Assembly: GCA_030673825.1 (NCBI GenBank)
Contig: JAUTCS010000015.1
Span: forward strand, 1-44,421
From: Verrucomicrobiota bacterium JB024
GTDB lineage: Bacteria; Verrucomicrobiota; Verrucomicrobiia; Opitutales; Cerasicoccaceae
DNA length: 44,421 nt
Direction of reading: 5' to 3'
Below the pieces are notes generated by a model that ran no database searches, had not been told where the DNA came from, and saw only the letters and a list, made by a program, of their open reading frames with translations. The translations under genes and the position numbers were made by a program. Of this stretch, positions 3-35,096 are shown piece by piece; position 1 is the stretch's first letter; each line of letters opens with the position of its first letter.

Positions 3-1097
3 AACTTCAACGGTTCGGACTTCTCCGTGCGCCTGCCCCTGGGGCTGGACTCGGTCCAGCGGATCGAGGACTTCGCGCCGGACATCATCCACTCGCACCA
101 CCCTTTTTTGATGGGCGACTCCGCCCTGCGCCTGGCCTACCAGTATGGCCGCCCGTTGATCTTTACGCACCACACCCGGTACGAGGACTACGTCCACTAC
201 ATCGTGGAAGACTCCGAGGCGCTCCAGACCATCGCCCGCGAGATATCCATCAACTACTCCAACCTCGCCGATATCGTCGTGGCCCCCAGCGCGAGTATTG
301 AAAACCTGCTACACGAGCGCGGACTGGAGCAACCCTCCCGCGTCATCCCCACCGGCATCGACCCGGCACGCTTCGCGCCAGATAAGCCGCAGGCCGTGCG
401 GGAGAAGCTCGGGATCCCGGCCGAGGCCTTTGTGCTTGGCCATGTCGGGCGGCTCGCCCCGGAGAAAAACCTCGGCTACCTCATGGAGGCCGTCACGCCC
501 TTTTTGAAGAAGCACCAGGATTGCCACTTTCTCGTCGTCGGCTACGGCCCGCAGGAGGAAAAGATGCGCGCCCACGCCGACAAGGCCGGAATCGCGCAGC
601 AGTGCCACTTCGCCGGTAAGCTTGAGGGCCAGGAGCTGGCTGACGCCTACCATGCGCAGGACCTTTTTGTCTTCTCTTCCAAGTCCGAGACGCAGGGCAT
701 GGTGCTGGCCGAGGCGATGACCTGCGGCAAGCCCGTCGTTGCGCTCGATGCCCCCGGCGCGCGCGAGGTCGTTCGCGATCACGATAACGGTCGTCTCTTA
801 CCCGAGGACGCGCCCGCGTCGGATTTCGCCCATGCGATCGAGGGACTGCATCAACTCGTAACCACCGGAAAACCGAAGGCAAAAAGTGCCCTCGACAAGG
901 CCGTAGCCGAGACCGCCGAAACCTTTTCCCTCGATGCGTGCATGGGCCGTATGTGCGATCTGTATGAAACGGCCATCCACGACTACGGCACTTCGGGCGA
1001 ACTCAATGGCTGGGAAAAATTCCTCGGTCGTTGCGAGGCGGAATGGCACTTGGTCATCGAAAAAGCCAGCAGTGCCCGTGCCGCCATCTGGCCGTAA
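3..1097 (+). CDS. Glycosyltransferase family 4 protein, 5' end outside window
   Basis: A cytoplasmic or membrane-associated GT4 (GT-B fold) sugar transferase that would move a sugar from a nucleotide donor to a lipid or glycan acceptor; the acceptor cannot be told. The frame is open to the window edge (a GTG at 27 is only the first in-frame candidate), and about 60-80 N-terminal residues of the family seem to be missing. Visible parts are an acceptor-side domain with 'DIIHSHHPFLMG' and 'THHTRYEDY', then the donor-binding domain with 'GHVGRLAPEKNL', 'LVVGYGPQEEKM' and the E-x7-E signature 'SETQGMVLAEAM', followed by 'PVVALDAPGAREVV'. The sequence resembles diacylglycerol glucosyltransferase or mannosyltransferase relatives. 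Codon use matches its neighbours. The family call is firm; the substrate is unknown. Confidence 0.9.
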   Translation, partial: NFNGSDFSVRLPLGLDSVQRIEDFAPDIIHSHHPFLMGDSALRLAYQYGRPLIFTHHTRYEDYVHYIVEDSEALQTIAREISINYSNLADIVVAPSASIENLLHERGLEQPSRVIPTGIDPARFAPDKPQAVREKLGIPAEAFVLGHVGRLAPEKNLGYLMEAVTPFLKKHQDCHFLVVGYGPQEEKMRAHADKAGIAQQCHFAGKLEGQELADAYHAQDLFVFSSKSETQGMVLAEAMTCGKPVVALDAPGAREVVRDHDNGRLLPEDAPASDFAHAIEGLHQLVTTGKPKAKSALDKAVAETAETFSLDACMGRMCDLYETAIHDYGTSGELNGWEKFLGRCEAEWHLVIEKASSARAAIWP

Positions 1098-1330
1098 GCG
1101 TGCCAGCACTCACGCACGCCGCGTAGCGATGGGATAAAGCTCATCGCGGGTTATGTGTACGTACCTCGTTGCCAGAGGCGACGCTACTATCGCCTGCGTA
1201 TAGCCTGTGAGCGCACCGACTCGGTAACTGCATCCACCGGACGAGAACCACTGCGTCCCCCCCCTTTGCCCGATCTCATGAGAGAGCAGCATCCCGCATG
1301 GGCTCGCGTTTCAGACCTTAGGGTGACCAA
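1098..1330. other. Non-coding stretch with four consecutive hairpins
   Basis: No convincing gene lies here. Successive inverted repeats are GCGTG/CACGC (1098-1115), GCGATG/CATCGC (1126-1147), AGGCGA/TCGCCT (1176-1195) and ACCGA/TCGGT (1215-1225). None is followed by a T-run, so this is not a standard terminator. A 60-codon minus-strand frame (1110-1292) exists but has no family resemblance. A structured transcript is possible but unproven. Confidence 0.3.
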
Positions 1331-1340
1331 ACCCCTTTTA

Positions 1341-1409
1341 TTGTTTATTTATTTTAAACAAATTTACCCCAATATTTTACTTGAGATAAACAGTAATCCT
1401 GTATTTATC
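1341..1409. promoter_or_regulatory. Two inverted repeats in the iclR promoter region
   Basis: The region is AT-rich, unlike the GC-rich surroundings. It holds TTGTTTA-N7-TAAACAA (1341-1361) and GATAAA-N13-TTTATC (1385-1409); the second also has CAG/CTG inside. They resemble regulator binding sites upstream of the IclR gene and its operon. Which protein binds is inference. Confidence 0.45.
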
Positions 1410-1422
1410 AATAAACATCCCG

Positions 1423-1447
1423 CTAAACACACAAACCTAGTGTTTAG
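1423..1447. promoter_or_regulatory. Perfect 8-9-8 inverted repeat, candidate IclR operator
   Basis: CTAAACAC at 1423-1430 and GTGTTTAG at 1440-1447 are exact reverse complements, 28 bases before the IclR ATG. The position suggests autoregulation of the whole catabolic operon. IclR proteins commonly bind such palindromes near their own promoters. Confidence 0.55.
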
Positions 1448-1475
1448 ATATATTTATCACTAAAGATACAGTCCC

Positions 1476-2264
1476 ATGCCGCGCGTCACCACCCTCGACA
1501 AAAGCCTTTCCGTACTGGAGGCGGTCTTCCGCTCCCAAGAGGGTATTGGTACGCGCAGTCTGGCCGCCCTTCTCGGGCTGAATGTGGCGACCGTCCACAA
1601 TATTGCCCAGACCTTCCGCGAGCGCGGGTACCTGCACCAGGACCCCAAGACAAAGCAATTTCTACCGGGCATGCGGATGATGCTGCTGGGGCACCATCCC
1701 AGCTACCGCCACTCGCTGGTGTCTTCCGCCAGCGCAGTAATGGAGGACGTAGCCCGCCAACTCAATGAGAGCATCCTGCTCGGCGCGATTGAGCACCACC
1801 GCATCATCAACCTCAAGTACATCCCGTGCCAGCATGCGCTACGGGTGCAGGAGCCTGAAGACGTCAGCGACCACTCCTACTGCACGGCTTTTGGTAAGGT
1901 CCTGCTGGCTGCGCTCCCCACGGAGGAGCTTGACGCCTACCTCGCCGAAACCGAGCTGAAGTCCTTCACTCCGCGGACGCTGGACACGCCGGAAAAGCTC
2001 CGACGTAACCTCGATGAAGTCCGCCGCCTCGGCTACGCCCGCACCTGCGACGAGTACTGTGAAGGCATCAGCGCAGTGGCCGTCCCGATCCACGACCCAT
2101 GGGGCGGTATCCTGGCCAGTATCGGCGCAAGCGCCCCGACCATCCGCATGCAGGAGGCGCAGATGGAGAACACCCTGCAAGTCCTCAAACAGGCGGCTGC
2201 CTCTATCGAGCACCTCTGGTGCAAAGACCTGACACCGGCCCCGAAGGTTCCCGCCGGACGCTAA
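1476..2264 (+). CDS. IclR-family transcriptional regulator
   Basis: A 262-aa DNA-binding regulator expected to sense a catabolic intermediate and control the downstream operon. Residues about 5-70 form the winged helix ('LDKSLSVLEAVF', 'TRSLAALLGLNVATVHN', 'ERGYLHQD'). The rest is the IclR effector domain with 'YCTAFGKVLLAALP', 'CDEYCEGISAVAVPIHD' and 'GGILASIGASAP'. Length is typical (about 250-260). The ATG at 1476 begins directly at the HTH and has no Shine-Dalgarno. It ends 13 nt before the next gene, so it appears to be the first gene of an operon with the enzymes at 2278-8236. Three inverted repeats in the leader (1341-1447) suggest self-control. The ligand is not known; a pentose or deoxysugar derivative is a guess from the isomerase at 4713. 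Confidence 0.93.
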   Translation: MPRVTTLDKSLSVLEAVFRSQEGIGTRSLAALLGLNVATVHNIAQTFRERGYLHQDPKTKQFLPGMRMMLLGHHPSYRHSLVSSASAVMEDVARQLNESILLGAIEHHRIINLKYIPCQHALRVQEPEDVSDHSYCTAFGKVLLAALPTEELDAYLAETELKSFTPRTLDTPEKLRRNLDEVRRLGYARTCDEYCEGISAVAVPIHDPWGGILASIGASAPTIRMQEAQMENTLQVLKQAAASIEHLWCKDLTPAPKVPAGR

Positions 2265-2277
2265 TCCTTTTCTTCCC

Positions 2278-4692
2278 GTGAAAAACCTAACCCTGGAAAT
2301 ATCCCTTAAACCCTTTTACGGCCTGAACCGCGAAGGCGTGCGCGAAGTCTGCGACCGCGCCCTGCGGCAATGGCATGCACTCGTCGAGCGAGCCGAAGTC
2401 GTCTCGATCATGTTCTGGGCCGCCGACGGTTCGGAAATCCTCGATTACACGGGCGATCTGGACGCCGAGATGGAGTGGGCCCGCTACCTGGGCAACGCCA
2501 ACCCGCACCTGCATCCGCAGATGCCCGGAGACCCCGAGGGCAAGAGCCTTCACGCGGGCTCCTACCCCTATCGCGAGGGTGCGAAAAAGATCACTTACCG
2601 CCGCTACGCGGAGATCATCGCCGTCTGGCGTGAAGCTGTCACCGCCATCGGTAAGCCTGTCCGCATCGGGCTGACCTTCGACCCCGGCGGCGAGTTCTCC
2701 CCCTCCACTTTCAAGTACGAACGCCACCCCGAGGTCTGCCTGGCCAACACCATGGGCAAGGGCAGCTTCGTCTGCTGCTACGGCGTGCTCAACGCCGATG
2801 ACCGCCCCTACGCGGGCTTCCCCGGGGGTATCCCGCAGGGAACGACGATGGGCACCTTCCTCGGTCGCCAGTTCCAACACCTGGCCGACGACCTGCACGC
2901 AGACTTCATCTGGCTCTCCAACGGTTTCGGCTTCGGCATGGAGACCTGGAAAACCGTCGGCCCGCTCTTCGACGGCGAGACCTTCGAGCCCGAATCCGCT
3001 CCTGCTGTGCGTGATAAGATTCTCGGCTTCTGGCAGGACTTCCGCAAGGAGTGCCCCAAGCTCGGCATCGCCACTCGCGGAACAAACCTCGGCACCGCTA
3101 CCGACCTGGCCAGCGACGCCACCCCGCTGCGCGAAATCTACGAGGGCGACTTCGACATGTTGCCACCCCCCAACTCGCCCTGGGCTGCGCTCAATGGCGA
3201 CTTCGGTATCGAGATCGCCGGCTACCTCAGCCGCATTGTCGAGTTGCCCGCCGGTAAGCCCGCCCTTTTCCGTTTCTACCTTCACGACATCTGGTGGCTC
3301 AACAGCCCCTGGCTCGACCGCTACGAAGGGCAGCCCCACGACATCTACCTGCCGATGGCCGCCTGTCGGATCACCGATCAGGGCGAGGCGGAGACTCCGG
3401 AAACCCTCAATCTCCTCTCCATCGACGACTCCTACGGGCGCATGCCCGACGCCGTCCCCAACGAGAGCACTCCGCACCTGCTACGTGCCTGGGATGAGCG
3501 CCCCGACGCCGCTGGGCCCATCGTGTGGCTGTACCCCTTCGATCAGGTCCATGACGCCATGTTTACCCAGCCACAGAGCCCGGAGCGGCTCTTCCATACA
3601 GACTGGTTCGTGCGCGAGGTGATCAACAGCGGCCTGCCCGTGAGCACCGTGATCAGCACCCGCGCCTTCGCCGCACTCGGCGATAAGAAGGACAAGGCCC
3701 TGGCCGGACGCTTGCTGCTCTCCCCCGCCCCCTTCGACACCGAGACCGAGCAGCAGTTGCTGGACTGGGTCGAGCAAGGCGGGAACGCTCTTGTTTACGG
3801 CCCTCTCTCGGCTGCCCCGCACCTGCGCGAGCGCCTCGGACTGGAAGAGGCCGACTCCCTGGTCGGAACGGTCGAGGTCCTCTCCAAGCTGCCTGACTGC
3901 GACACCATGGAGAACGGGCAAACGCCTTCGCACTACGAGCACCGCCCGATCATGTCCGCCGGAGGTCTGCAGGAAAGCCCACTCCCGGGCTCAACACCCG
4001 ATGTCGTCGCCCGGCTGGAAGAGCAGGACCGCGTATTAGTTTCCCACTACAACACCTCCTCCGGAGGCCAACTGTGGTGGCTGCGCGGCCCTCTGCCCCT
4101 GGCCATGGAGCCGGAGAACCACCTGCCGGTCCCCGACGCCCCCGCCACCACCTTCCCCTTGAGCGGGCTCGTCCGCCGCGCCTTGGCCGAGCTCGGTTGG
4201 AGCATTGGCTTCCGTGCCGGGAACCGCTCCCAGCGCCTACCCGTGCTGGGCCTTCACCGTCATGACAACGGCTGGTTCTTCTCCGGCTACACGCCGGACA
4301 CCACCGTCGAGTTCAACCTGAAAACCCCTTACGGCGCACCGCTGCTGCTGGGCATAGAGACTCGCCTGCGCGAGGGGATTGCCAGTTTCCATCAGCAACG
4401 GGGCTGGCGCAAGGAATGCCGCGTCTTCATCGACCAGGCAGAGGGTGTCGCCAGTGCGAAAGAGAGTACTCCCGGCCAGGTCGGCGTCACCCGCCGCATG
4501 TGGGTCCATGGACTCGATGCGGCCACCGTCCGCTTTTTCCCGCCGACCGGGGCGAACGTCACCGCCTGGCACAACCCGCTTTGGCCGTTCATTAGTGGCA
4601 CGAAGCTGAAGCTCAACAGCGTTCAAACGCCACAAGGGCTGATGCTCGAAACCGACGAGCGCGTCAGCGGCACGATTCTTTTTTCCTGGTAA
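2278..4692 (+). CDS. Unrecognised 804-aa protein, probable glycoside hydrolase with GH42-like layout
   Basis: I do not recognise this as a characterised family. It starts at a GTG 13 nt after the IclR stop and has no signal peptide, so it is probably cytoplasmic. Residues 1-400 read like a (beta/alpha)8 barrel: 'LTLEISLKPFYG' at the N-terminus, 'RIGLTFDPGGEFSPS', 'HADFIWLSNGFGFG', 'RGTNLGTATDL'. Residues about 440-530 ('HTDWFVREVINSGLPVST', 'LLDWVEQGGNALVYGPL') resemble the glutamine-amidotransferase-like trimerisation domain that follows the barrel in GH42 beta-galactosidases. A beta-rich C-terminus follows. Acidic residues in 'DPGGEF' and 'LNGDFGIE' are candidate catalytic groups, but I cannot assign them. 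Its place between a regulator and a sugar isomerase supports release of a sugar from an oligosaccharide. The function remains inference. Confidence 0.6.
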   Translation: MKNLTLEISLKPFYGLNREGVREVCDRALRQWHALVERAEVVSIMFWAADGSEILDYTGDLDAEMEWARYLGNANPHLHPQMPGDPEGKSLHAGSYPYREGAKKITYRRYAEIIAVWREAVTAIGKPVRIGLTFDPGGEFSPSTFKYERHPEVCLANTMGKGSFVCCYGVLNADDRPYAGFPGGIPQGTTMGTFLGRQFQHLADDLHADFIWLSNGFGFGMETWKTVGPLFDGETFEPESAPAVRDKILGFWQDFRKECPKLGIATRGTNLGTATDLASDATPLREIYEGDFDMLPPPNSPWAALNGDFGIEIAGYLSRIVELPAGKPALFRFYLHDIWWLNSPWLDRYEGQPHDIYLPMAACRITDQGEAETPETLNLLSIDDSYGRMPDAVPNESTPHLLRAWDERPDAAGPIVWLYPFDQVHDAMFTQPQSPERLFHTDWFVREVINSGLPVSTVISTRAFAALGDKKDKALAGRLLLSPAPFDTETEQQLLDWVEQGGNALVYGPLSAAPHLRERLGLEEADSLVGTVEVLSKLPDCDTMENGQTPSHYEHRPIMSAGGLQESPLPGSTPDVVARLEEQDRVLVSHYNTSSGGQLWWLRGPLPLAMEPENHLPVPDAPATTFPLSGLVRRALAELGWSIGFRAGNRSQRLPVLGLHRHDNGWFFSGYTPDTTVEFNLKTPYGAPLLLGIETRLREGIASFHQQRGWRKECRVFIDQAEGVASAKESTPGQVGVTRRMWVHGLDAATVRFFPPTGANVTAWHNPLWPFISGTKLKLNSVQTPQGLMLETDERVSGTILFSW

Positions 4693-4712
4693 CCCTTTAA
4701 CCCACTCCATCC

Positions 4713-6212
4713 ATGATCAGTACAGTTCTCACACCCGCTCCGACCATCGCGCGGCGCAAACCGCTCACCGCCAAGGCCGGCCTGCTGGCTATCGGCCATC
4801 ACGTTTACTGGCCGCAGTTCGACGGGCTGATGGACGAGATGAATCGCAAGCTGGACGATTTCCAGGGTCGCCTCGAAGCGCACGGCCTCGACGTCGCCAG
4901 CTTCGGCATGCTCGACTGCGCGCAGAAAGCCTACGACGCTGTGCCCGCAATCAAGGCCGCCGACATCGACATCCTCTTCGTGGACATGGTGACCTACGGC
5001 ACCTCTTCCACCTTCGGCATCCTCTGCCGCGAGATCAACGTGCCCATCGTGCTCGTCGCGATCCAGCCGCTGGAGGCGATGGACTACCCCAACGGCACGA
5101 CCTTCATGCAGCTGTGCAATGACGACTTCTGCTCGGTGCCGGAGTTCACCGGTGTGGCCGTGCGCTTTGGCCGCCGCCCCCCGCCCGTCATCCTCGGGCA
5201 CGAGGGAGACGATCCAGCCGTCGAGCGCGAGATCAAGGCCTGGTGCGGCATCGCCAAGGTCCTGCACTCCCTGCGCAAGAGCCGCATCGGCCTGATGGGC
5301 CACGTGCTTGAGTCCATGCTCGACATGCATACCGACCCGACCGCGATCACCGCGGCCTTCGGCCCTCACGTCGTGCTGATCGAGGCCAACGACGTCTACC
5401 GCCATTACCGCGAGCCCGACTCCGCCGCCGTAGAAACGTGGAAGGAACAGATCCTCGAATTTTTCGATACGCCGGACCCGAAGTCTGACCCGATCACCGA
5501 AAAGCTCACCGAACGCGACCTGGACAACGCCGCCCGCGCTGGTGTGGCGCTCGACCAACTCATCGCGGACAAAAAGCTCGACGGCTTCGCCTACTATTAC
5601 GAGGGCGAGCCGGGCTCCGACCTGCGCACGCTCGTCACGAACTTCATCGTGGCCAACTCGCTGCTGACCGGCGCGGGTTTCCCCATGTGTGGTGAGTTCG
5701 ACATCAAGACCTGCATCGCCATGATGATCATGGACCGGCTCGACATCGGGGGCAGCTTCGCCGAGTTCCATCCCGTTGACTTCAAACTCGACAGCGTATT
5801 GGTCGGCCATGACGGCCCGCATCACATTAACATCGCCGCAGGCAAACCCGTCATCCGCAGCCTGAAGAAGTACCACGGCAAGCCCGGCTCAGGCGCGGGC
5901 GTGGAATTCCAGATCAAGGAAGGTCCGATCACCATGCTCAGCATCGGCCAGACCGCTGATGGCAAGTTCAAGTTTGTCATCGCCGAGGGCGAATCCGCCG
6001 CCCGCCCGATCCCTCCGACCGGCAACACCAACACACACGGCGTTTTCCTGCCGGACGTGCGCACCTTCCTCAAGCGCTGGGTCGCCGAAGGCCCCACCCA
6101 CCACTTCGCGCTCGGCATCGGCCACCATGCCGCCGAGCTCGTCGAGATCGCCAAGATCCTTGGCCTCGAGTACACCGTGGTAACCCCCGAGCAATCGGAA
6201 CCGCTGTCATAA
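4713..6212 (+). CDS. L-arabinose/L-fucose isomerase-family protein
   Basis: A 499-aa cytoplasmic ketol-isomerase of the AraA/FucI superfamily, expected to turn an aldose into a ketose with a divalent metal. The candidate metal ligands known from E. coli AraA (two Glu, two His) have counterparts here: E328 in 'GEFDIKTCIAMM', E351 in 'SFAEFHPVDF', a His in 'LVGHDGPHH' (366, 370 or 371) and H471/H472 in 'ALGIGHHAAEL'. The N-terminal alpha/beta part has 'GLLAIGHHVYWPQF' and 'LFVDMVTYGTSS'. Length fits AraA (about 500) better than FucI (about 590). It starts 20 nt after the previous gene and belongs to the same operon. No matching kinase or aldolase is next to it, so the substrate (arabinose, fucose, rhamnose or another sugar) is open. 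Confidence 0.8.
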   Translation: MISTVLTPAPTIARRKPLTAKAGLLAIGHHVYWPQFDGLMDEMNRKLDDFQGRLEAHGLDVASFGMLDCAQKAYDAVPAIKAADIDILFVDMVTYGTSSTFGILCREINVPIVLVAIQPLEAMDYPNGTTFMQLCNDDFCSVPEFTGVAVRFGRRPPPVILGHEGDDPAVEREIKAWCGIAKVLHSLRKSRIGLMGHVLESMLDMHTDPTAITAAFGPHVVLIEANDVYRHYREPDSAAVETWKEQILEFFDTPDPKSDPITEKLTERDLDNAARAGVALDQLIADKKLDGFAYYYEGEPGSDLRTLVTNFIVANSLLTGAGFPMCGEFDIKTCIAMMIMDRLDIGGSFAEFHPVDFKLDSVLVGHDGPHHINIAAGKPVIRSLKKYHGKPGSGAGVEFQIKEGPITMLSIGQTADGKFKFVIAEGESAARPIPPTGNTNTHGVFLPDVRTFLKRWVAEGPTHHFALGIGHHAAELVEIAKILGLEYTVVTPEQSEPLS

Positions 6213-6245
6213 AACTTCAATACGACCGCACCAGCCGCTTCCGCG

Positions 6246-7037
6246 ATGGATACCATCACGAGGGATCTGCCCTATGGTGAACTTCCCCGGCAAACGGGAG
6301 ACCTATTCCTGCCCGGGAACGGGCAGGAACCCCGCCTCCCCGTCCTGCTGATTCACGGAGGCGGCTGGAACGCGCTTTCAAAAGAGTCAATTGAGCCGAT
6401 AGCACGGGTGGCCCTGAGATTCGGGCACCCTGTATTCAGTATCAACTACAGGTTGCTTAAACATGCGCCCTGGCCCGCATGCGGGAACGACTGCCGGGCT
6501 GCGGGGCACTTTCTGCTGGCCGACATGTTAAAGCCCCACGGTCTCCCTGCACCGGACCGGATCATTTTCGCGGGGGCCTCGGCAGGCGGACACCTTGCCA
6601 TGATGACCGGCCTGCGCCTGCCCGCCGACAGGATCGCCGGGATACTTTCCCTGGCCGGACCGTCCCGACTCTATCCGCGGGACGATACGGGCGACTCTGC
6701 CATCCGCGGAGAGGGCTTTCTGGAACAATTCTTCGGTCGTCCCACAAATATCAACGATGACCGCGTGGCCGCCGCGAGCCCGGTCCACTGTGTCGGACGC
6801 ATCCCGCCGCCACTCACGTGCATCCACAGCGTCAATGACCACCTCGTGCCCCTCTCCCACTCGCAGGACGCGGTGACGGCCTGGAACCGGGCAGGCGGCA
6901 GCGCCCAGCTGCACACTTACGATGGACCCGGGCACCAGCACGGCTTCTGGACCAGCGACGATATCGCCACACGGTCGCTAATCCCTGAGGTACTCCATCA
7001 CCTGGAGCAGTATTTCAAGCTCACTCCCGCCAGCTGA
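6246..7037 (+). CDS. Alpha/beta hydrolase, esterase/lipase-like
   Basis: A 263-aa alpha/beta-hydrolase of the hormone-sensitive-lipase/BD-FAE kind. It probably removes acetyl or feruloyl groups from sugars. The oxyanion motif 'LIHGGGWN' is near residue 35, the nucleophile elbow 'GASAGGHLA' near 115, the acid is probably the Asp of 'VNDHLVPL', and the His is in 'GPGHQHGFW'. A second conserved patch is 'FSINYRLLKHAPWP'. There is no signal peptide, so it should act on imported oligosaccharides in the cytoplasm. It lies 33 nt after the isomerase gene. Substrate specificity cannot be read from sequence; carbohydrate de-acetylation is inferred from the operon. Confidence 0.82.
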   Translation: MDTITRDLPYGELPRQTGDLFLPGNGQEPRLPVLLIHGGGWNALSKESIEPIARVALRFGHPVFSINYRLLKHAPWPACGNDCRAAGHFLLADMLKPHGLPAPDRIIFAGASAGGHLAMMTGLRLPADRIAGILSLAGPSRLYPRDDTGDSAIRGEGFLEQFFGRPTNINDDRVAAASPVHCVGRIPPPLTCIHSVNDHLVPLSHSQDAVTAWNRAGGSAQLHTYDGPGHQHGFWTSDDIATRSLIPEVLHHLEQYFKLTPAS

Positions 7038-7177
7038 GCTGGCAGATATAAAGGTCCTGATCTGACGACCTCGCCAGGGTGAGCCGGTCTTCGAGCTGGT
7101 ACGGAGAGAACTGCGGACCATTTCCAACCTTCGCAGGGTACCCCCCGCATTTCCTGTGGAGTTCCCATAAATAGAGA

Positions 7178-7203
7178 TTGACCGACACGAGAGAAACTGT
7201 TTC
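7178..7203 (+). promoter_or_regulatory. Candidate -35 box and LacI-type operator before GH130
   Basis: TTGACC at 7178-7183 could be a -35 element. The perfect palindrome GAAACTGTTTC occupies 7193-7203, eleven bases before the GH130 ATG. The same AAACTGTTT core occurs upstream of the LacI gene, the PEP-CTERM gene and the prepilin gene. This suggests GH130 has its own regulated promoter besides read-through from the IclR operon. Confidence 0.65.
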
Positions 7204-7213
7204 AACAATACTT

Positions 7214-8236
7214 ATGACGAAGAGAATTTTGGCAAAGCACCCCGAAAACCCAATTCTAACGGCAGCGGATTTCCCCGGTGCCGCCATGTACATTTTCAAT
7301 CCCGGGGTTATCAAGTTCAACGGTGAATACCTCATGATGGCCGACGTGGCTACGCTCGCCCAGCCCATCTTCCTCCATATGGCCCGGAGTAAGGACGGCG
7401 TCCACTTCAAATTCGACGAGAAGCCGCTAGCCTGGCCCGAGCCCGATCCGATCCACCCGGAGGACTGTATTTACGACCCGCGCATCACGAAAATCGGCGA
7501 GGAATACTTCATCGTCTACGCCAGCAGCAGCGAAGGCCGGGGCGTGCGCGTGGGCATCGTCAAGACCCGCGACTTCGAAAAATTTGAAAGAGTTTCTATC
7601 GCCAGTGAATCCGGCAACCGCAACGGCGTGCTCTTCCCCCGGAAGATCAATGGCATGTACTGCCGCCTGGATCGCCCCTTCGGCAATCCGCGCGACTCGG
7701 CCGGGATGTGGCTCAGCTACTCTCCGGACGGCGTTTTCTGGGGCCTGTCCGAACCGGTGATGGACCCGCGCGTGGGCCTGTGGGACAACGGCAAGATCGG
7801 TGCGGGCGCCGTTCCGATCGAGACCGAGCACGGCTGGCTGTGCATCTACCACGGCACGACCCAGACCGGCGCAGGCGTGATCTACCGACTCGGCGCTGCG
7901 ATGCTCGACCTGAAGAACCCTGCTAAGGTGCTCGCCCGCTCGGAGGACTCCATCCTGTGGCCCGAGTTCGACTATGAGATGTTTGGCCGCGTGCCGAACG
8001 TGGTCTTCAGCTGCAACGCGATCGTGGAAGACGACGGCATGGTCCGCATCTACTACGGCGCGGCGGACACTTGCGTGGGCCTGGCCGAGGGGCACATCGA
8101 GGACATCATCGAGTCCTGCTACAGTAAGAACCCTTACCTGCTGCGCCCCAAGGGGTCGCCCTACTACCTGGGTGACGCACCGAAGGCCGCCCCGGTCCGC
8201 GTGGAACAGCCCAGCGCCGAACCCGCCTCCGTCTAG
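7214..8236 (+). CDS. GH130-family glycoside phosphorylase/hydrolase
   Basis: A 340-aa five-bladed beta-propeller enzyme of GH130, a family that mostly uses phosphate to break beta-mannosides and release mannose 1-phosphate in the cytoplasm. Visible family patterns are 'KHPENPILTAADFPG', 'FNPGVIKFNGEYLMMADV', 'DCIYDPRITKIGEEYFIVY' (Asp expected to be catalytic), 'GLWDNGKIGAGAVPIETEHGW'-like core residues, 'YHGT' and 'VPNVVFSCNAIVEDDG'. I chose the ATG at 7214 because family members start at 'KRILAKHPENPIL'; an upstream TTG at 7178 would put the operator inside the gene. A 177-nt gap with its own operator separates it from the esterase. A strong terminator follows at 8265. The subfamily, and so mannoside specificity, is not certain; it is clearly different from the GH130 at 37642. 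Confidence 0.88.
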   Translation: MTKRILAKHPENPILTAADFPGAAMYIFNPGVIKFNGEYLMMADVATLAQPIFLHMARSKDGVHFKFDEKPLAWPEPDPIHPEDCIYDPRITKIGEEYFIVYASSSEGRGVRVGIVKTRDFEKFERVSIASESGNRNGVLFPRKINGMYCRLDRPFGNPRDSAGMWLSYSPDGVFWGLSEPVMDPRVGLWDNGKIGAGAVPIETEHGWLCIYHGTTQTGAGVIYRLGAAMLDLKNPAKVLARSEDSILWPEFDYEMFGRVPNVVFSCNAIVEDDGMVRIYYGAADTCVGLAEGHIEDIIESCYSKNPYLLRPKGSPYYLGDAPKAAPVRVEQPSAEPASV

Positions 8237-8264
8237 GCTCCCGGGACACACTGATAGCTTTTAC

Positions 8265-8304
8265 AGACCCCGCTCAGGCTGCACGCCGGGCGGGGTCTTT
8301 CTTT
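8265..8304 (+). terminator. Rho-independent terminator after GH130
   Basis: A stem AGACCCCGC / GCGGGGTCT (8265-8273 with 8290-8298) is followed by a T-rich tail. It ends the plus-strand operon 1476-8236. Confidence 0.88.
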
Positions 8305-8345
8305 CTACATCAAGACCAGGCTGGATGACGTGTAGTTAAAATCAA

Positions 8346-9356
8346 CTACGCGTTCAGTGCGCGGGTCGAGCGCCGTGCAATCAGCACGGGAGTCAGGTTC
8401 TGCGAATTGGCGACCGAAGGCTCGTCGTCGTCATTTTCGATTTCCTTAAGAATCATCCTCACCGACTCGACCCCCATCTCGTAAGCCGGGATACGTATCG
8501 CGGTCAGCGGGGTGTCGAGATTCTCGAGGATGGCGTCCTCCTCAAACCCGATGACGGACACATCCTGCGGGATGGAAAAGCCCATCTGCTTGACCTCGTT
8601 CTGAAAGCCGAGCGTGAGCTGCTCGTTGGTGACAATGACAGCCGTCGGTCGGTCCGGCTGACTGAACAGGCGACGCGCGCTCTCTGCCCCGGCTGCCTGC
8701 GTGGCGTCCTTGTACTCCAGGCAGATCGGGCGCTGCTTGGGGTTGGCTTTTTTCAGCGCATCGACGTATCCGCTGGCGCGTTGCGCGTGCCCGTGATCGT
8801 CATGGCTAAAGGAAATCATGGCAATCTTGCGGTGCCCGAGCGAAAGCAGGTACTCAGTGGCGTCCCTACCCGCCTGGTAGTCGTTGAGCAGGATCTGGTT
8901 CATGCTGTCATCACGGGTCTTGTATCCGATGACCACGTGTGGAATCTTTTCCATCCCGATGCGGTCAGCCAGGCTATAGCCCCGCGGCAGGCTCAGGATC
9001 AGGCAGCCGGAGACGCCCTCCTGCATGACCATCTGCCGGATCTCGCGCCCGTTTTTCACCTTGTCGAGAAAGGGACGCACCACGAGCGTGTAGCCGAGCG
9101 CGAAGCTCGAGTCGCACACACCCGCCACGATATGCGAGAGATAGGTGCTACACAGGGCCCGGGGGTGCTCGGGAACGAGCAGCAACAGCCGCTTGCGGTC
9201 AAAGGCCTTCCAGCGCGGCCGGAAGTTCAGCTTCTCCATCGCGATCTTGATCTTTGTCACGGTCGCATCGTTTACGCCCGGACGCCCGTTGATGACGCGG
9301 GAAACCGTGGCTGGCGAGACGGAGGTGGCTTTGGCAATATCGTAGATCGTGGTCAT
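8346..9356 (-). CDS. LacI-family transcriptional regulator
   Basis: A 336-aa LacI/GalR repressor. The ATG at 9356 starts directly at the HTH: 'TTIYDIAKATSVSPATVSRVINGRPGVNDATV', with the hinge helix around residues 47-60. The effector domain has 'PHVVIGYKTRDDSMNQILLNDYQAG', 'LGHRKIAMIS', 'TAVIVTNEQLTLGF' and 'DVSVIGFEED', as in periplasmic-binding-like sugar sensors. An AAACTGTTT palindrome (9509-9521) lies in its upstream gap, and a near copy (GAAACAGTTC, 9365-9374) lies just before the start. Similar sites are upstream of GH130 and the PEP-CTERM and prepilin genes, so it is the best candidate for the regulator of that set. The ligand is presumably an oligosaccharide or sugar phosphate made by those enzymes. 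Confidence 0.93.
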   Translation of the reverse strand: MTTIYDIAKATSVSPATVSRVINGRPGVNDATVTKIKIAMEKLNFRPRWKAFDRKRLLLLVPEHPRALCSTYLSHIVAGVCDSSFALGYTLVVRPFLDKVKNGREIRQMVMQEGVSGCLILSLPRGYSLADRIGMEKIPHVVIGYKTRDDSMNQILLNDYQAGRDATEYLLSLGHRKIAMISFSHDDHGHAQRASGYVDALKKANPKQRPICLEYKDATQAAGAESARRLFSQPDRPTAVIVTNEQLTLGFQNEVKQMGFSIPQDVSVIGFEEDAILENLDTPLTAIRIPAYEMGVESVRMILKEIENDDDEPSVANSQNLTPVLIARRSTRALNA

Positions 9357-9542: not shown

Positions 9543-12500
9543 CTATTGCCCGCTACCCGTTGGCGGCTTGAGCTTACCATAATGCGAGGGAGACTTGTCT
9601 CCGGCAATGCCGCCGCCCCACTCCAGTGTCCGGTCTCGGCCACCACTGTCACTGTCGTTGACGACGAAGGAGAGGTAAAGCGGTTTCGACGGGTCATAGG
9701 TCAGCGGGTACAGCTCGCCCCAGTCCAGACGAATCGCGTAGCGGGTGACCCCGTCCTCATGCGTGATCTCCACATCGGCGTACTCAACTGAGCTCTGAGC
9801 TGGGGTCCAGTGCGAGGGGATGTCCCCGCGCGGATCGGCGGCAGTGAGCTTGTATAGGCCGGGACCCTGCGGCGTCAGCGCGGCGATCAGCTCGGTATTT
9901 CCCCCGGCCCATCCCGAGGCGTCGCAGTCCACGCCTATCTGCAGACTGTCATTACGCCACCACTGGGACTCATCCTCATTCTGGATGTGCGTGGCGTCCT
10001 CGACCTCGACGACGATGTCGATACCCTCAGAATGGATGCCCACGGCGGCGCGCGCAGTGAATGTATCCGCCTCCGAGGTATCGCCGAGCGTGCTCAGCTT
10101 CCAGTCGTCGCCGATCCAGGCGGAGTTGGAGATATCTACCGGGTCGTCCACAAATTCGAAAAGCGCTCCATCCTGGTACACGTGCTCGACCGTCTCGACC
10201 TGCTGGCGCTTGGCCCATTCGAGGTTGACGAGATTGTCGGCGGGGCCGGCGGCGGCGATGGCAGCCGCATCCGGAGCGGTCAGGAAGTAGAGGCGGTTGG
10301 CAGGGAGCTGCCCCTGTCCGTCCAACGCGATGGGCTTGCCCTCCCAATCGGTCAGCGCCGAGCTGTCGGAGGCAAAAGCGGAGATGGACGCCACCGGCAA
10401 CGGGCTGGACTCGCTCCAGAAGACCGTCAGCGGACCGCGTCCGGTATCCAGCAGCAACGCGATAATGCCGTCCCCGGCGTCGAAGTCTTCCACGAATGTC
10501 GCCTGGTGGGCGGTCAGGTTGAGGAAGTTGGCCATGACCACGGCGGCCTGACGCGGCTCGATGTCGGGACGGCTGCGAAACAACCCCGCGCTGTGCACGA
10601 ACCACTTGTTGTCGCCGGCCCACACAAGCGTCTCGGCCTCGACGAGATTTGCCATTTCAAAAAACGCGCTACGGCGCACCCCGTTTTTCAGTTGGAGCAT
10701 CTGCTTGCGCATCATGCGCAGGGACAGGGCCTGCTCGGACAGCAGCGGGGTCTTCTGATTGGCGTTCTGGAGAATAGCGTGCCACTCGGAGTTGACGACT
10801 GGTTTAGGGGCGACTCCCACCATCTCCTCCGCGCGGCGGAACTCCTCCAGCGGAGGGCGTCCGTGCACGGAGAGGACGTCGAAATAGGGAGCCGCCCCCA
10901 GTTCCAGTATCCTCCTGAAAAAGGCATAGTAAACGGCGCGCGGGCCGAGACCGCCGAGCCAGACTTCGGAATCGGGCTGCACGTCTTTGATCGAGGTGTA
11001 GCCAGCCTGGATCAGTTTGACAAAGTTCTCCGGCGTATCGGACCAGAAGACGCTGCCGCCGGGCATGGCGGGCTCGTTCCACAGCTCCCAGATACGGATG
11101 CGGTCCCCGTAGCGCTCGACCGTGTCGCGCACGAAGCGGCCATAGTCCTCGATGTTGACCGGCGCGTAGGAATTGGCCTCGATCACGCAAATCTTTTTAT
11201 TGGTCTTCTCCGGGTACGGGGAGGCCCACGTCGGCGTGTAGCAGAACTGCGCTGAGATCATGAAGCCCGCCTCTTCCAGCGCGTCAACGTGAGGGTCGAG
11301 ATTCTCCCAGTGGTACTCGCCCTTGACCGGCTCAATGGCCACCTGCTGATTGGTAAAATGCGCCCCCCATGGAATCGAGTGGATGTTGGCCAGGTCAAAG
11401 CCGACGAGCTTCGCCAGCGGGATATACTGGGGCTTGAGCAAGTAGGTGAAACCGAACTGGCCAACCGGCCCATTCACCGGCAGTTGCGCCGGAAGCACGG
11501 CGAAGCCTTCCCGCGTATGGGCAAAGGTACGGGTATTGCCATTGGGTGCACGCAGGGCGAAGGTCTGCCCCATCTCGGTCGCCTTGCCCGCGGCATCCAC
11601 CCAACTGAAGGCCGCTTCGTAGTAACCCGGTTCAGCGGGTGTCCAGCCCCACCCCTCCGACTCGGCCTGGGCCTTGGACAAAGTGTCCTCTGTTACGACC
11701 TCGCCTTCGACATCGTAAACCGTCACCGCGACAGACTCCGCCCGGGCGGGCAGCTTACCACCCTTGACCATGTAGCGGACCTCATCACCCGCATACCACC
11801 ACGCAGACTCAGCCGCCGGCTCCATCCCGACAGTGGGCATGACCGGCCCGGCGCTGGTGGCATCACCCGAGGCCGTCAACCCAAAGCTCTCCGCCACCTC
11901 ACTCCCGGCGGGCTGGGCGAAACCGGAAACCCCCGCGTACGTCGGCTCAACCGCGAAGGAGCGCCCCGCCAAGCTCATCCCGTCCACAACTTTGGCGCCA
12001 TTAACCCAAAGCGTCACCCGCTGTGCTTCGCTTTCCAGCATCAGGCGCAGGCCGACCGGCGTCCCCGGATCAAAGCCTGCTACCATGCCCGACTTCAGCC
12101 CCTTGGCACTCTTGGACTCCCAGTCTTCGGGATCATCATTGCCGAACAGAGCAAACGAGCCATTGCCCTTGAGTATAACATAAAGGCCCTTGCCCCAGGT
12201 CGGCGTACCCAGACGTGGCGTACCGATGCCCAGTGCAACCCAGCCAGGGCCGGCGGCACGCAGGTCCGCCTCTGCCGTGATCACCTTCGCCCCTGCCGGG
12301 ACAGCCACCCGGCCCATGAAGGGGGCCGCATTTTCCACAGTCAATCCGCCGCCCTCATCTCCGCCGAAACGGAGGTTGGCTGTCGCCTGCCAGGTCCCGG
12401 CACCATTGCCGAAGGACGCGCCCTTGAGGGGCTCGCCAGCGGGCTGGTCGCCGAAGTCCGTGCGGACCGTCTCCGCCAACACGGAGGCGGCCGCCAGACA

Positions 12501-12545
12501 GGCCAGGGTGGTCACAGCTACGAAATAAGTCGGACGAAACTTCAT
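9543..12545 (-). CDS. Secreted multidomain glycoside hydrolase, clan GH-A barrel with CBM9-like C-terminus
   Basis: A 1000-aa exported enzyme. The ATG at 12545 gives a clear signal peptide ('YFVAVTTLACLAAASVLA'). Residues about 25-230 form a laminin-G/concanavalin-like beta-sandwich ('GGLTVENAAPFMGRVAV', 'VTLWVNGAKVV'). About 260-350 is an Ig-like region. About 360-780 is a (beta/alpha)8 barrel with 'WELWNEPAM' (acid/base Glu491) and 'VVNSEWHAI' (likely nucleophile Glu587), the paired Glu pattern of clan GH-A (GH5/GH39/GH51-like). The last 190 residues ('WIGDDWKLSTLGD', 'WRNDSLQIGVDCD', 'YAIRLDWGELYPL') look like a CBM9/DOMON-type domain. It lies 114 nt after the PEP-CTERM gene on the same strand and probably shares its operator. 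The GH family and substrate are uncertain; a beta-xyloside or beta-mannoside/glucan target is plausible. Confidence 0.82.
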   Translation of the reverse strand: MKFRPTYFVAVTTLACLAAASVLAETVRTDFGDQPAGEPLKGASFGNGAGTWQATANLRFGGDEGGGLTVENAAPFMGRVAVPAGAKVITAEADLRAAGPGWVALGIGTPRLGTPTWGKGLYVILKGNGSFALFGNDDPEDWESKSAKGLKSGMVAGFDPGTPVGLRLMLESEAQRVTLWVNGAKVVDGMSLAGRSFAVEPTYAGVSGFAQPAGSEVAESFGLTASGDATSAGPVMPTVGMEPAAESAWWYAGDEVRYMVKGGKLPARAESVAVTVYDVEGEVVTEDTLSKAQAESEGWGWTPAEPGYYEAAFSWVDAAGKATEMGQTFALRAPNGNTRTFAHTREGFAVLPAQLPVNGPVGQFGFTYLLKPQYIPLAKLVGFDLANIHSIPWGAHFTNQQVAIEPVKGEYHWENLDPHVDALEEAGFMISAQFCYTPTWASPYPEKTNKKICVIEANSYAPVNIEDYGRFVRDTVERYGDRIRIWELWNEPAMPGGSVFWSDTPENFVKLIQAGYTSIKDVQPDSEVWLGGLGPRAVYYAFFRRILELGAAPYFDVLSVHGRPPLEEFRRAEEMVGVAPKPVVNSEWHAILQNANQKTPLLSEQALSLRMMRKQMLQLKNGVRRSAFFEMANLVEAETLVWAGDNKWFVHSAGLFRSRPDIEPRQAAVVMANFLNLTAHQATFVEDFDAGDGIIALLLDTGRGPLTVFWSESSPLPVASISAFASDSSALTDWEGKPIALDGQGQLPANRLYFLTAPDAAAIAAAGPADNLVNLEWAKRQQVETVEHVYQDGALFEFVDDPVDISNSAWIGDDWKLSTLGDTSEADTFTARAAVGIHSEGIDIVVEVEDATHIQNEDESQWWRNDSLQIGVDCDASGWAGGNTELIAALTPQGPGLYKLTAADPRGDIPSHWTPAQSSVEYADVEITHEDGVTRYAIRLDWGELYPLTYDPSKPLYLSFVVNDSDSGGRDRTLEWGGGIAGDKSPSHYGKLKPPTGSGQ

Positions 12546-12659
12546 TATTCTTTGTCGGTGGCCGAATAGCGGCTTACACACATTGACAGCGAACCGCCGC
12601 CGGTGCAACGCAAGCCGCAACGGTAAAAAGAAACAAGGGGTTGGAAGAACAGAAGCCTC

Positions 12660-16189: not shown

Positions 16190-16565
16190 GAGCATTCCGG
16201 TCATTCCCGGAGCCAATCTCCGGCTTTGCTTGAGCGAAACCCCTCTCCGCCGATTGCACGCCTTATCCGCGTTGCCTGGCAACGTACGCGCAGGCATGAA
16301 GACTATCCCCCTGATGAATGGCGAAACATCCCCAGTCCTTCTTATGACATTGATAAGAGGGGGTTTTCTGATAATAACCGTCTCAGATTTAGTCAACATC
16401 ACTAGATAGATCGCTGGTCGGATTGCAGTTGTGCGCAGGCAGACACTCCAGTTCCGGGACTCGCTTCCGGACCGGAAATCCTATCTCACGGCACCGCGGT
16501 AGGCCGCTCCTCTTTCGGTGATGTGGACACGCCGGGACCTCTCACCCGTTCCGTTTGACTCATGG
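16190..16565. other. Intergenic region without a recognisable gene
   Basis: No frame here has family resemblance. The region between sulfatase and the giant GH81 gene should hold the latter's promoter, but I see no clear -35/-10 pair. A GTTGCC-TGGCAAC repeat lies near 16272-16284. Confidence 0.3.
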
Positions 16566-16588
16566 ACTGTCCAGAAACCCCGGACAGT
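16566..16588 (+). promoter_or_regulatory. Inverted repeat in the GH81 leader
   Basis: ACTGTCC-N9-GGACAGT is a perfect 7-bp inverted repeat 25 bases upstream of the GH81 ATG. It may be an operator or an mRNA leader hairpin. Confidence 0.4.
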
Positions 16589-16613
16589 TGAAAACTCCCT
16601 GAACGTTCTCCGC

Positions 16614-19600
16614 ATGCTAAAAATACGTTTCGCTCCGCTCGTGGCGCTCACCGGCGCTTTGCTCACCGCTTCCACCGCCGATGCCCTCACCTACCAGGAC
16701 TGGGTCTCGGGTTTCGCCTTCCCGATCGGCCAGGAAGGCCCGCTCATGAACCCGGACAAGGACCGGTACAACAACGCGCTGGAGTATGTGTTTGGGACAG
16801 ACCCACTCAGCGCCGATATCCCCGCCGGAGTCGGCCCGGTCATGGAGGGGCCCTTCACGGGGGCCAAGGTGGTCTTCCGCAAGCGGGCGGATCTGGACAG
16901 CGCGGCGACGTTCCAACTGGAGCGTTCCAGCTCGCTGGACAGTGACTCGTGGACGGACGTCGCCATCACCGTCTCCGGCCAGGTTGACCCGGACAACCCG
17001 GACGTGCTCATCTACCGGCAGCCCGTGCAGCCACCGCTGAACGCTGGCGAGCAGTTCTTCTACCGGCTGAACATCGTCGTGCCCTACTCGCCCGAGCTGG
17101 CCGCCAAGGTCCTGGTCGGCGTGGATGCGGGCTCGGCCTGGGACGGCATTCCCTCCATGGACAGCGCCTACATTTACCAGATCAATCCCGCCGTCAGCGA
17201 CACCGACGACACGCCCCAGAACAGCAAGTATCCGAAAGCCGCCGCGGCCGAGCAGGTCGCCTTTACCCAGAACCTGCTGGGCGACTACGCCTCGCAGCGC
17301 GCGCAGCCGCCTCGCCGCAGCTGGATGGGCTGGTTCCTGTGGGGTAACGGCACGCCGCCGCCCGGCCACGTGGCCGGTTATCCCTACAACGACCCGAACA
17401 ACTCCAACGTCACCCCGTGGGACTACTACGTGTGGCAGTACGAACCCACGGACGGTATCGACAACGGCTCGTGGACGCCCGTTCGCGTGGACCAGCAGCC
17501 CCTTTACATGCAGCCGCTGCGCCTGAACTACAACTGGGCCCCCGGCAAGTTCGGCTACCTGACCAAGCCGATGAAGTATTTCCCCGGCGAGGCCAAGTAC
17601 TGGCAGGAGAAGCAGATCGTGCGCGGGGTCAACCTCTCGCCCAACTACCCGTACTTCATCCAGTACGGCAACCGCGTGGACTTCGGCAGCGGGGACAACT
17701 ACCCCGACGCCTGGCGTGAATCCTGGCTGCGCATGAAGGTCCGCGCCCTGGAGACCCTCGTGCTCGTGCCCTCCGTCGTCGCCCCCGGTGACATGCTCAC
17801 CGACGAGATCTGGAACAACGTCGGCACCGCCCTGGAGCCTGACTATCAGCCCTTCCCCTACCCGGTCCTCAACTCCGCGCTCAAGCCGCAGGAGCAGACG
17901 CCCTACGCCATCCTCACCGACAAGATCGGCGACTGGCACGCCGACCTCGTCTGGGAAGGAACCAACCCCAGTATCTCCGCCTACGACAACTACCGCTACC
18001 GTCGCACAGCCTTTAACCAGCCCGGTCTCGGCAACTACCTGAAAATGACCGTCGCGCAGGGTTCGCCCTTCGTGTGGTGCGAGCTGAGCGCGAACCAGAC
18101 CGCGCCCGCCGACACGGACCGGTACATGATCTTCTACAACCTCATCCGCCAGAACCTCCAGGGCTCCATCGACAACAACACCGGCACCGACGCCGGGACC
18201 GTCTCCGGCGGCCCGCGCGAAGTTCCCGGCGTGACCGGCGTCAGCTACGTCCTGCTCTACGGCGACCAGAACAACCCGAACCAGTGGTTCCTGGAGAACA
18301 TCCCCGAGTTCCCCTATCGCCCGGACCCGAACAACGACCCGGAGAACGAGCAGCCCGGCGGCTTTAACCCGCCCGGCGCGCAGGACAATTACACGTACTT
18401 TGCGGTCTTCTATCGCACGGACACGGTCGAGCCCGTCACCGACGCCAACTCCGGCACCGACGCCCAGGGCAACCCGTACTTTTACCTGAAATTCACCGAT
18501 CCGGGCTTTAACGGCACGGACAAGAACTGGTTCGTCGTCGGCCAGGTGCCGGTCATGCGCTACTACCACACCGGCGTCACCCGCGACGCCAAGACCGTGC
18601 TCGACCAGGCCGCCCGCGACTGGGCCGACGAGATGGGCAAGTACGCCTTCAACTTCCTCACCGACACCGACGTGCGCTACAATGTGACCAACATGTACAA
18701 GGTCACCACGCACTTCGACGCGGCCTTCCAGAACCCCTTCGTCGTCGCCGGGGACGCTGCCGCCTCCGCTATGACCACGGATAATTCGAAGACCGTCATG
18801 GCACTCTTCCCGCACCACTACCAGCCCTTCACGCTCGGGCCGGACCTGACCAGCGCCAGCCGTACCGAGGTCGTCTGGGATCCGCTCCAGACCACCGGGA
18901 TCGACTTCCCCGCCGTGGACGCCCCGCCCAACGCCAACAAGAGCGAGCCCTCCGCCGACGCGCACTGGGACTACTGGCACCCACGCGGCAACCTCAAGAG
19001 CGTCGTCACCGGCTCCTTCACCGTGGAGTATCCGTTCCAGAATTTCCTCCCCGCCATGCCCGCGCCCAAGTGGGAGGATAACTACGCCCAGACCGGCATC
19101 CAGGTCGCCCTGCTCGACAACGTCAGCGGCTACACCCGCGTGACGGACGAGCCCACCGCCACCCTCACGGACCTGCGCCCCGGCGGCCAGGGCTCGGGTG
19201 CGGAGTTCAAGGTCCTGCTGGAGCCCTACACCGGTCGCGTGCTCCAGGTCGATGTCGTCAACCCCGGCTACGGCTACCCCGTGGGTAACCCGCCCGCCAC
19301 CTCCGAGGCCGAGTTCACCATCTCCGCCCCCAGCCTGCCCAGCGGCACCCAGGCCAAGGGCCGTGTGCAAACCGACGGCGAGGGCCGCGTCCTGGCCGTG
19401 TTCATGAACGACAAGGGCTCGGGCTACCGGACGACGATTTCCATCACCCAGGCGAACAACCCGAAGATCGACCCGGCCATCGTCGTGCCGCAGTTTGACT
19501 CCAGCAACAACGTCATCCCCGGCCCGGCCACGATCATCACCGGCGGCTCGGGCTACGACTTCACAGACACGGAGAACCCCGTCACCGCCGAGCTCATCGG

Positions 19601-24888: not shown

Positions 24889-24948
24889 AATGAATATTTC
24901 TTTGGCGTTGAGTGAGTGTAGTGAATAACGGATACAGTCAGGAGCTTA

Positions 24949-29576: not shown

Positions 29577-29714
29577 CGGGGTTGTTTTTTGGGGTAGTAT
29601 TTTAGTTGGATTCAGGCCAGGAACACGCACCGGGCCATATTGAGGGGTAAGGGAACCCCGGCACGCCCCGCAAGGAGGCGCGCCCGAGGTTGGTGTGGGG
29701 GGTAGAAAGTGTAC

Positions 29715-31547: not shown

Positions 31548-31567
31548 TTTTATGACAGGGGTTGGGG

Positions 31568-32566: not shown

Positions 32567-32588
32567 GGGAAAAAGGATTGGAGATGGA

Positions 32589-35051: not shown

Positions 35052-35096
35052 GGATTTCAAGGGATCGAGTTAGGGTTGTTGGAGAAAACAGCAAAA

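Follow-up and report, generated by a model that had tools for sequence, protein, structure and literature searches.

The glycoside hydrolase (GH) family GH42 (4oif, 5e9a) and the GH164 enzyme Bs164 (6t7g) share one build, in which a barrel, an amidotransferase-like trimerisation domain and a β-sandwich follow each other in this order, and, as in clan GH-A, they carry an acid/base Glu on strand β-4 and a nucleophile Glu on β-7, as given in the available part of PMC7105311. A GH42-type build was also described, in the available part of PMC8233224, for Op5Man5 (7bob), a GH5 exo-mannosidase of clan GH-A from Opitutaceae bacterium TAV5 with the catalytic residues E156 and E281. Here, a stretch of 44,421 nucleotides from Verrucomicrobiota bacterium JB024 (assembly GCA_030673825.1, contig JAUTCS010000015.1, positions 1 to 44,421 of the forward strand; hereafter the window) was analyzed for an 804-aa protein, called c0, and for the isomerase (c1) encoded directly after it. 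The c0 protein has the same layout as GH42 and GH164, but it differs from them in having Asn-Gly on β-4, Asp on β-7, an extra C-terminal β region and an isomerase partner, and no sequence relation to them was detected beyond a weak match of the amidotransferase domain to GH42. Compared with Op5Man5, whose source family Opitutaceae also holds one of the closest c0 relatives (L004), c0 is without both catalytic Glu positions.

We put the probability at about 0.62 that c0 is a mostly cytoplasmic, probably exo-acting glycosidase which frees an aldose for the paired isomerase. A first-pass annotation of the window, which had proposed a new glycoside hydrolase family acting on imported oligosaccharides, was partly supported: no family match was obtained in the libraries searched, the predicted fold is of a glycosidase type and the neighbourhood is catabolic, while the hydrolytic activity, its catalytic residues, the sequence of steps and the sugar are what we infer from these.

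Identification of the c0 Family

The gene is the following:

2278–4692, + strand: 804-aa putative glycoside hydrolase of an undescribed family (c0), with a GTG start, a 51-row alignment and an AlphaFold model

This open reading frame (ORF) is real, far beyond chance, since 41 columns are invariant across the 51 aligned sequences; the 50 aligned relatives are 32–66% identical to the c0 protein. The alignment (A1) comprises the better matches, with weaker hits of the phylum sample lying outside it, and the counts out of 51 given below refer to its rows. L069, with a match close to that of L068, was left out, L067, a short row from a contig edge, belongs to A1 and not to A4, L003 is cut at its contig end, and some rows carry 5′ extensions (144 aa in L045, 133 aa in L012 and 25–64 aa in 14 others). 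The relatives span at least four phyla, with record titles naming Opitutaceae, Planctomycetota, Chloroflexi and Oscillospiraceae. The family is present in 15 of the 286 genomes of a class sample and in 36 of the 240 genomes of a phylum sample, covering 24 genera. The genome of the window harbors three copies, including 2278–4692, with the two paralogues being 62% and 44% identical; the maximum in the phylum sample is three whole copies, in the genomes G000 and G402.

The c0 protein obtained nothing above the cut-off in Pfam, no match in NCBIfam and PHROGs, and no match below E 0.8 among PDB sequences, where the sole hits were weak ones to two replication-protein chains (E 0.84 and 1.3). The 51-sequence profile found no PDB chain at E 10, and the 51 members gave in Pfam only six scattered weak families (best E 0.006, at most three members per family), while DUF4350 over the amidotransferase-like domain reached a weak 14.6 bits against a cut-off of 30.4. 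Judged against Pfam, NCBIfam, PHROGs and PDB, c0 is an undescribed family and a strong candidate for a new GH family at the level of sequence. The protein might instead belong to an existing CAZy family that lacks a representative in Pfam, NCBIfam or PDB, which are generally known not to cover all recent GH families, and its novelty would then be only apparent. We consider this unlikely, given the scattered Pfam hits of the 51 members, the absence of a match for the window protein in NCBIfam and for the profile in PDB, and a literature search in which no description of such a family or of a hydrolase–isomerase pair was found by titles and abstract openings among the matches listed.

Nonomuraea gerenzanensis encodes a distant relative that consists of the barrel only (L154:8884-10122, 413 aa) and matches profile positions 46–224 with E 1.5e-30 in a search of the ORFs on its stretch. 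It raises the possibility that c0 belongs to a larger superfamily as one of its branches. Judged by eye, the ORFs around this relative would encode a LacI regulator, components of a sugar ABC transporter and enzymes resembling GH1 and GH3.

Predicted Structure of the c0 Protein

The domains of the protein were placed as follows:

2278–3573, + strand: (β/α)8 barrel, residues 1–432 (boundary approximate), presumed catalytic; AlphaFold models and fold matches
3574–4197, + strand: amidotransferase-like domain of the GH42 trimerisation type, about residues 433–640 (boundaries approximate); model, fold match and profile comparison
4198–4689, + strand: β-sandwich (about 641–717) and further C-terminal β region (about 718–804); DSSP of the model

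The AlphaFold model has a mean predicted local distance difference test score (pLDDT) of 94.7 and a predicted template modelling score of 0.94, and its barrel, amidotransferase-like domain and β-sandwich are laid out as in GH42 and GH164, with the extra C-terminal β region mostly beyond the long GH42-type alignments, which end at residue 713–748. In Foldseek, GH42 β-galactosidases ranked first (4oif, E 7.0e-16, TM 0.44 by query length) and GH164 was also matched (6t7g, E 5.8e-13). In VIA, where rows less than 1 Z apart were treated as tied, the whole model was aligned to Cwp19 (Z 17.0, root-mean-square deviation (rmsd) 4.5, 301 residues), the β-1,2-glucosyltransferase 7x87 (Z 15.2, rmsd 5.8, 540 residues), the α-L-fucosidase isoenzyme 2 6tvk, which we take to be GH151 (Z 14.4, rmsd 5.7, 534 residues), and the GH42 chain 5e9a (Z 13.9, rmsd 6.5, 537 residues). 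Alignments of more than 500 residues were obtained with the glucosyltransferase, 6tvk, GH42 and GH164 chains at Z 13.2–15.2, and those to GH42 chains cover 501–542 residues at Z 13.3–13.9, so that the model appears to contain all three GH42 domains.

The barrel folded alone was predicted with a pLDDT of 91.7, and nearly all of the 50 rows shown for it are carbohydrate-active enzymes by title, the top VIA rows being Cwp19, a GH5_18-type enzyme, PgaB, 6tvk and β-amylases. No useful match to c0 was found among viral structures, and absence from a fold list was not taken as exclusion. These models bear out the barrel-like first half that had been read from the sequence. The GH42-like amidotransferase fold claimed for the second domain agrees with the fold matches, whereas its profile support is weak (residues 446–507 against GH42, E 0.0014 in a single comparison, probability 17%). 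On these models, the kind of fold of c0 is clear, and the fold does not single out a family.

Conserved Residues at the Barrel Strand Ends

Positions were derived from the strand limits of the predicted model and from the column counts of the 51 rows. Three sites stand out:

2692–2694, + strand: E139 after β-3, in the motif DPGPEF, candidate catalytic residue; Glu in 51/51
2920–2925, + strand: N215-G216 after β-4, at the site of Asn-Glu in clan GH-A; both in 51/51
3286–3288, + strand: D337 after β-7, candidate catalytic residue; Asp in 51/51

Besides these, K11 after β-1 (51/51), D50 and E53 after β-2 (47/51 and 49/51), D135 after β-3 (50/51), R267 and N270 after β-5 (50/51 and 51/51), N299 and S300 near β-6 (50/51 each), H336 after β-7 (50/51) and D383 after β-8 (50/51) are conserved, so the conserved acidic motifs seen in the single sequence hold across the family. 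In the model, the catalytic Glu positions of clan GH-A on β-4 and β-7 would be taken by Gly216 and Asp337, and neither Glu is found in any of the 51 members; the acidic column nearest to the β-4 site, 222 (E in 36 and D in 9 of the 51 rows), is not invariant. The resemblance to GH42 is confined to the layout, because none of the catalytic Glu positions of GH42, GH164 or clan GH-A is kept.

A sequence-drifted but ordinary GH42 β-galactosidase or GH164 β-mannosidase would account for the identical three-domain layout. This is very improbable: the GH42 catalytic domain PF02449 gave no match to the c0 protein at E 1, the Glyco_hydro_42M middle-domain model matched only one of the 51 members (best E 0.079), and Bs164, although present in PDB, was not among the chains found by the c0 profile at E 10. 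Furthermore, the two catalytic Glu (available part of PMC7105311) are kept in 0/51, while ordinary GH42 proteins of related genomes retain Asn-Glu (N160 and E161, at least 9 of 10 rows). Membership of GH42 or GH164 is refuted by these residues, and activity on β-galactosides or mannosides is possible.

Judging from conservation and the model, E139 and D337 are the foremost candidates for a catalytic pair, because the Nonomuraea relative retains both while some other acids vary. This relative keeps E139, H150, E152, D174 and N215 inside the profile match; outside it, K11 and D337 are kept according to the MAFFT alignment only. The substitution of Asn-Gly for Asn-Glu on β-4 and of Asp for Glu on β-7 in all 51 rows would also suit a GH42-type protein that no longer hydrolyzes and has another role in the same sugar pathway, for instance that of a lyase, a transglycosidase, a phosphorylase or a binding protein. 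We regard such a loss of hydrolysis as improbable, since the polar residues where the strands end are strongly conserved as a complete set, which argues for catalysis, and three of the 51 members look exported by eye, as might be expected of a glycan-degrading enzyme.

Partner Isomerase and Its Co-Occurrence with c0

The gene after c0 is the following:

4713–6212, + strand: AraA/FucI-superfamily isomerase of a narrow group (c1); Pfam Fucose_iso_C 36 bits, Arabinose_Iso_C 34 bits

The 30-sequence c1 profile matched E. coli AraA (2ajt/4f2d) with E 2.5e-16, and c1 aligns over most of AraA with all aligned ligand residues kept: the columns E328, E351, H366 and H464, invariant in 30/30, fall on E306, E333, H350 and H450, the metal ligands of AraA. 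The sequence relation and these residues place c1 in the AraA/FucI superfamily. It scored 56.5 bits against the L-arabinose isomerase equivalog NF002795 (cut-off 622) and 46.9 bits, a weak match, against the sulfoquinovose isomerase (SftI) equivalog NF048012 (cut-off 700), both cut-offs being far above the c1 scores. The c1 protein is not an ordinary AraA, since the genome of the window also holds classical AraA and RhaA, and many genomes carry c1 in addition to a classical RhaA, FucI or AraA. The IclR regulator and AraA-like isomerase named as flanks of c0 in the first-pass annotation do lie there, at 13 nt and 20 nt, respectively, but the isomerase is of this other kind.

In the phylum sample, the narrow c1 group comprises whole matches with at least 60% identity to the window protein, plus partial matches in G395 and one fragment (78%) in G051, while cousins are 32–41% identical. 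There, the narrow isomerase was found in 36/36 c0 genomes against 4/204 others (G312, G419, G448 and the G051 fragment), with a Fisher p of 1.1e-38, to be read with the genomes not being independent events and the sample covering 24 c0-bearing genera. In the class sample, which overlaps the phylum sample in part, it was found in 14/15 c0 genomes against 4/271 (G012, G020, G029 and the G051 fragment; p 2.2e-19), and the fifteenth c0 genome, G027, has a 44% isomerase relative beside the hydrolase. A single isomerase match is present in 33 of the 36 c0 genomes of the phylum sample; G372 and G383 have a cousin as well, and G395 has two matches, both of them pieces. Two narrow isomerases occur in one genome of the class sample, G199.

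As controls in the phylum sample, RhaA was found in 34/36 c0 genomes against 104/204 others, FucI in 30/36 against 100/204, and AraA in 16/36 against 42/204, the counts in c0 genomes being tallied by hand from listings. Since these enzymes are often present too, the sugar route is not simply that of RhaA, FucI or AraA. The possibility that c1 substitutes for one of them was rejected, with 34, 30 and 16 of the 36 c0 genomes carrying RhaA, FucI and AraA, respectively.

Among 64 fetched neighbourhoods (63 distinct, L053 being L075; some end at contig edges), 30 contain the isomerase within the fetched stretch, and in 25 it is the immediate neighbour of c0, always with both genes on one strand. 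Isomerase-linked and unlinked c0 members were intermixed across a quick tree labelled from these neighbourhood data. Genomic hitch-hiking among carbohydrate-rich genomes would also bring the two genes together, in that c0 genomes are rich in GH genes, both genes may mark glycan specialists and about half of the loci have no isomerase nearby. We give this explanation very little credit, as the distributions of RhaA, FucI and AraA are unlike the 36/36 against 4/204 of the narrow isomerase, and 25 loci show a direct same-strand gene pair.

Several points weaken the link. The limit of the narrow group was drawn after the gap between 60% and 41% had been seen, and by identity, not by tree. With all isomerase matches at E 1e-40, the contrast falls to 36/36 against 23/204 in the phylum sample (59/240 in total) and to 15/15 against 50/271 in the class sample (65/286 in total). 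Absence in a genome rests on the first look of the search tool. Moreover, 33 of the 63 loci are without an isomerase on the fetched stretch, some of these stretches stopping at contig edges.

The cousins L135, L137, L138 and L140 (37–40% identity) adjoin GH106 or GH78 α-L-rhamnosidases, with the neighbours of L137 and L138 called GH106 by blast cluster, and may represent a second uncharacterised isomerase group. Together with GH106 beside some c1 genes, the cousins adjoining rhamnosidases suggest a rhamnose route, which may apply to the cousins and is only weakly indicated for c1. Two other cousins, L155 (Rhizobium plasmid) and L156 (S. meliloti pSymB), are about 40% identical to c1 and annotated as arabinose isomerase, with AraC regulators and genes for sugar ABC transporters nearby. 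For the pSymB cousin, the passages of PMC2597717 and PMC4961836 on candidate transporters and predicted galactosamine genes indicate no sugar; they were located via guessed locus tags and are not tied to the cousin isomerase.

Gene Neighbourhoods and N-Termini

Neighbourhood genes were called with our own ORF script instead of a gene finder, and part of the neighbours were annotated. A gene of the blast cluster of the window's IclR regulator was present in 15 of the 64 neighbourhoods, and other annotated neighbours include WbsX-type, GH106, GH95, GH3 and GH38 proteins, a GH2-type mannosidase, sugar transporters of the major facilitator superfamily, AraC regulators and sulfatases. These sugar-related enzymes and transporters around c0, with the adjacent isomerase, fit the neighbourhood that the first-pass annotation had read from one locus. 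They also hint at deoxy- or manno-configured sugars, too diffusely to name one.

Most rows of the alignment (35/51) start at most 16 residues before the barrel. Among the remaining 16 rows, L053 and L014 have Tat-like and L057 a Sec-like N-terminus by eye, and L006, a paralogue from the genome of the window, has a hydrophobic stretch ahead of an internal ATG, possibly its true start. By this reading by eye, c0 appears mostly to be without a signal peptide, and the scarcity of signal-peptide signs is consistent with the imported substrates that had been supposed.

Proposed Function

In the proposed mechanism, an imported glycoside would be cleaved inside the c0 barrel, most likely via the invariant E139 and D337, with the sugar bound by K11, N215 and nearby acidic residues. 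The aldose released in this way would then pass to the paired, metal-dependent isomerase of the AraA/FucI type, be converted to a ketose and enter metabolism. Genomes usually hold one isomerase and one to three hydrolases, so that a single isomerase may serve several glycosides. Given these gene numbers, the sugar-operon context and the mostly intracellular location, the simplest account is that c0 is a hydrolase releasing an aldose for the isomerase.

Other observations speak against this reading. A non-hydrolytic or inactive barrel is possible because the clan GH-A Glu on β-4 is missing, and no sequence family match in Pfam, NCBIfam, PHROGs or PDB supports hydrolysis. The barrel alone shows no favourite in VIA, where Cwp19 (Z 17.2) is followed by families at about 15 and below, and in Foldseek GH36 comes first at only E 1.7e-5, with pyruvate kinases and reductases listed too. 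The Nonomuraea relative has His at position 53, Glu at 135, Gln at 216 and Asn at 383, and R267 falls in a gap. The neighbouring hydrolases point to several sugars, and no recurrent kinase or aldolase was found among the annotated neighbours beyond PfkB in the close relatives L033 and L034.

A wider claim, to which we give slightly less than even odds, is that c0 is a new glycosidase family with a GH42 build and its chemistry off the β-4 Glu which, with an obligate new isomerase, would form an undescribed one-aldose route in Verrucomicrobiota and several other phyla, apart from the rhamnose, fucose and arabinose routes. The near-constant isomerase pairing hints at such an undescribed sugar-breakdown route. 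If the proposal that c0 frees an aldose for c1 is true, a few soluble proteins could be tested together and would open a new GH family and its sugar, with the isomerase as an independent read-out, as the aldose it converts should equal the sugar freed by the hydrolase. The family would also be an exception to the β-4/β-7 Glu pair used by GH42, GH164 and Op5Man5, the enzymes so far described as having this build.

Operon and Other Genes of the Window

The genes around c0 and c1 are listed below:

1476–2264, + strand: IclR-family transcriptional regulator; Pfam IclR_C 2.1e-36, HTH_IclR 1.1e-10
6246–7037, + strand: BD-FAE-like esterase; Pfam BD-FAE 4.6e-27
7178–8236, + strand: GH130-family protein (mannoside phosphorylase family); Pfam Glyco_hydro_130 1.7e-59

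The regulator gene is separated from c0 by 13 nt and c0 from the isomerase gene by 20 nt. A single operon of iclR, hydrolase, isomerase and esterase is likely, because a consensus scan, a weak test, found no terminator-like site on the + strand within 1050–8400; promoter-like sites in the scan did not exceed chance level. The esterase probably belongs to this operon and the GH130 gene perhaps does.

Beyond a LacI regulator after the operon, the − strand at 9543–12620 encodes a 1025-aa ORF with no Pfam match at 1e-5, which by eye resembles a secreted glycoside hydrolase. A 2114-aa ORF at 16518–22862 likewise has no Pfam match at 1e-5, and the strand opposite to it also has long ORFs. An FGGY kinase and a FAD-dependent glycerophosphate oxidase-like gene lie at 23332–26457 (− strand) and probably serve glycerol use. 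An OprB porin, PTS IIB/IIC and a fused EIIA-HPr-EI, encoded at 28323–35060 (− strand) and followed by a LacI regulator at 35292, perhaps form a fructose-type phosphotransferase system (PTS).

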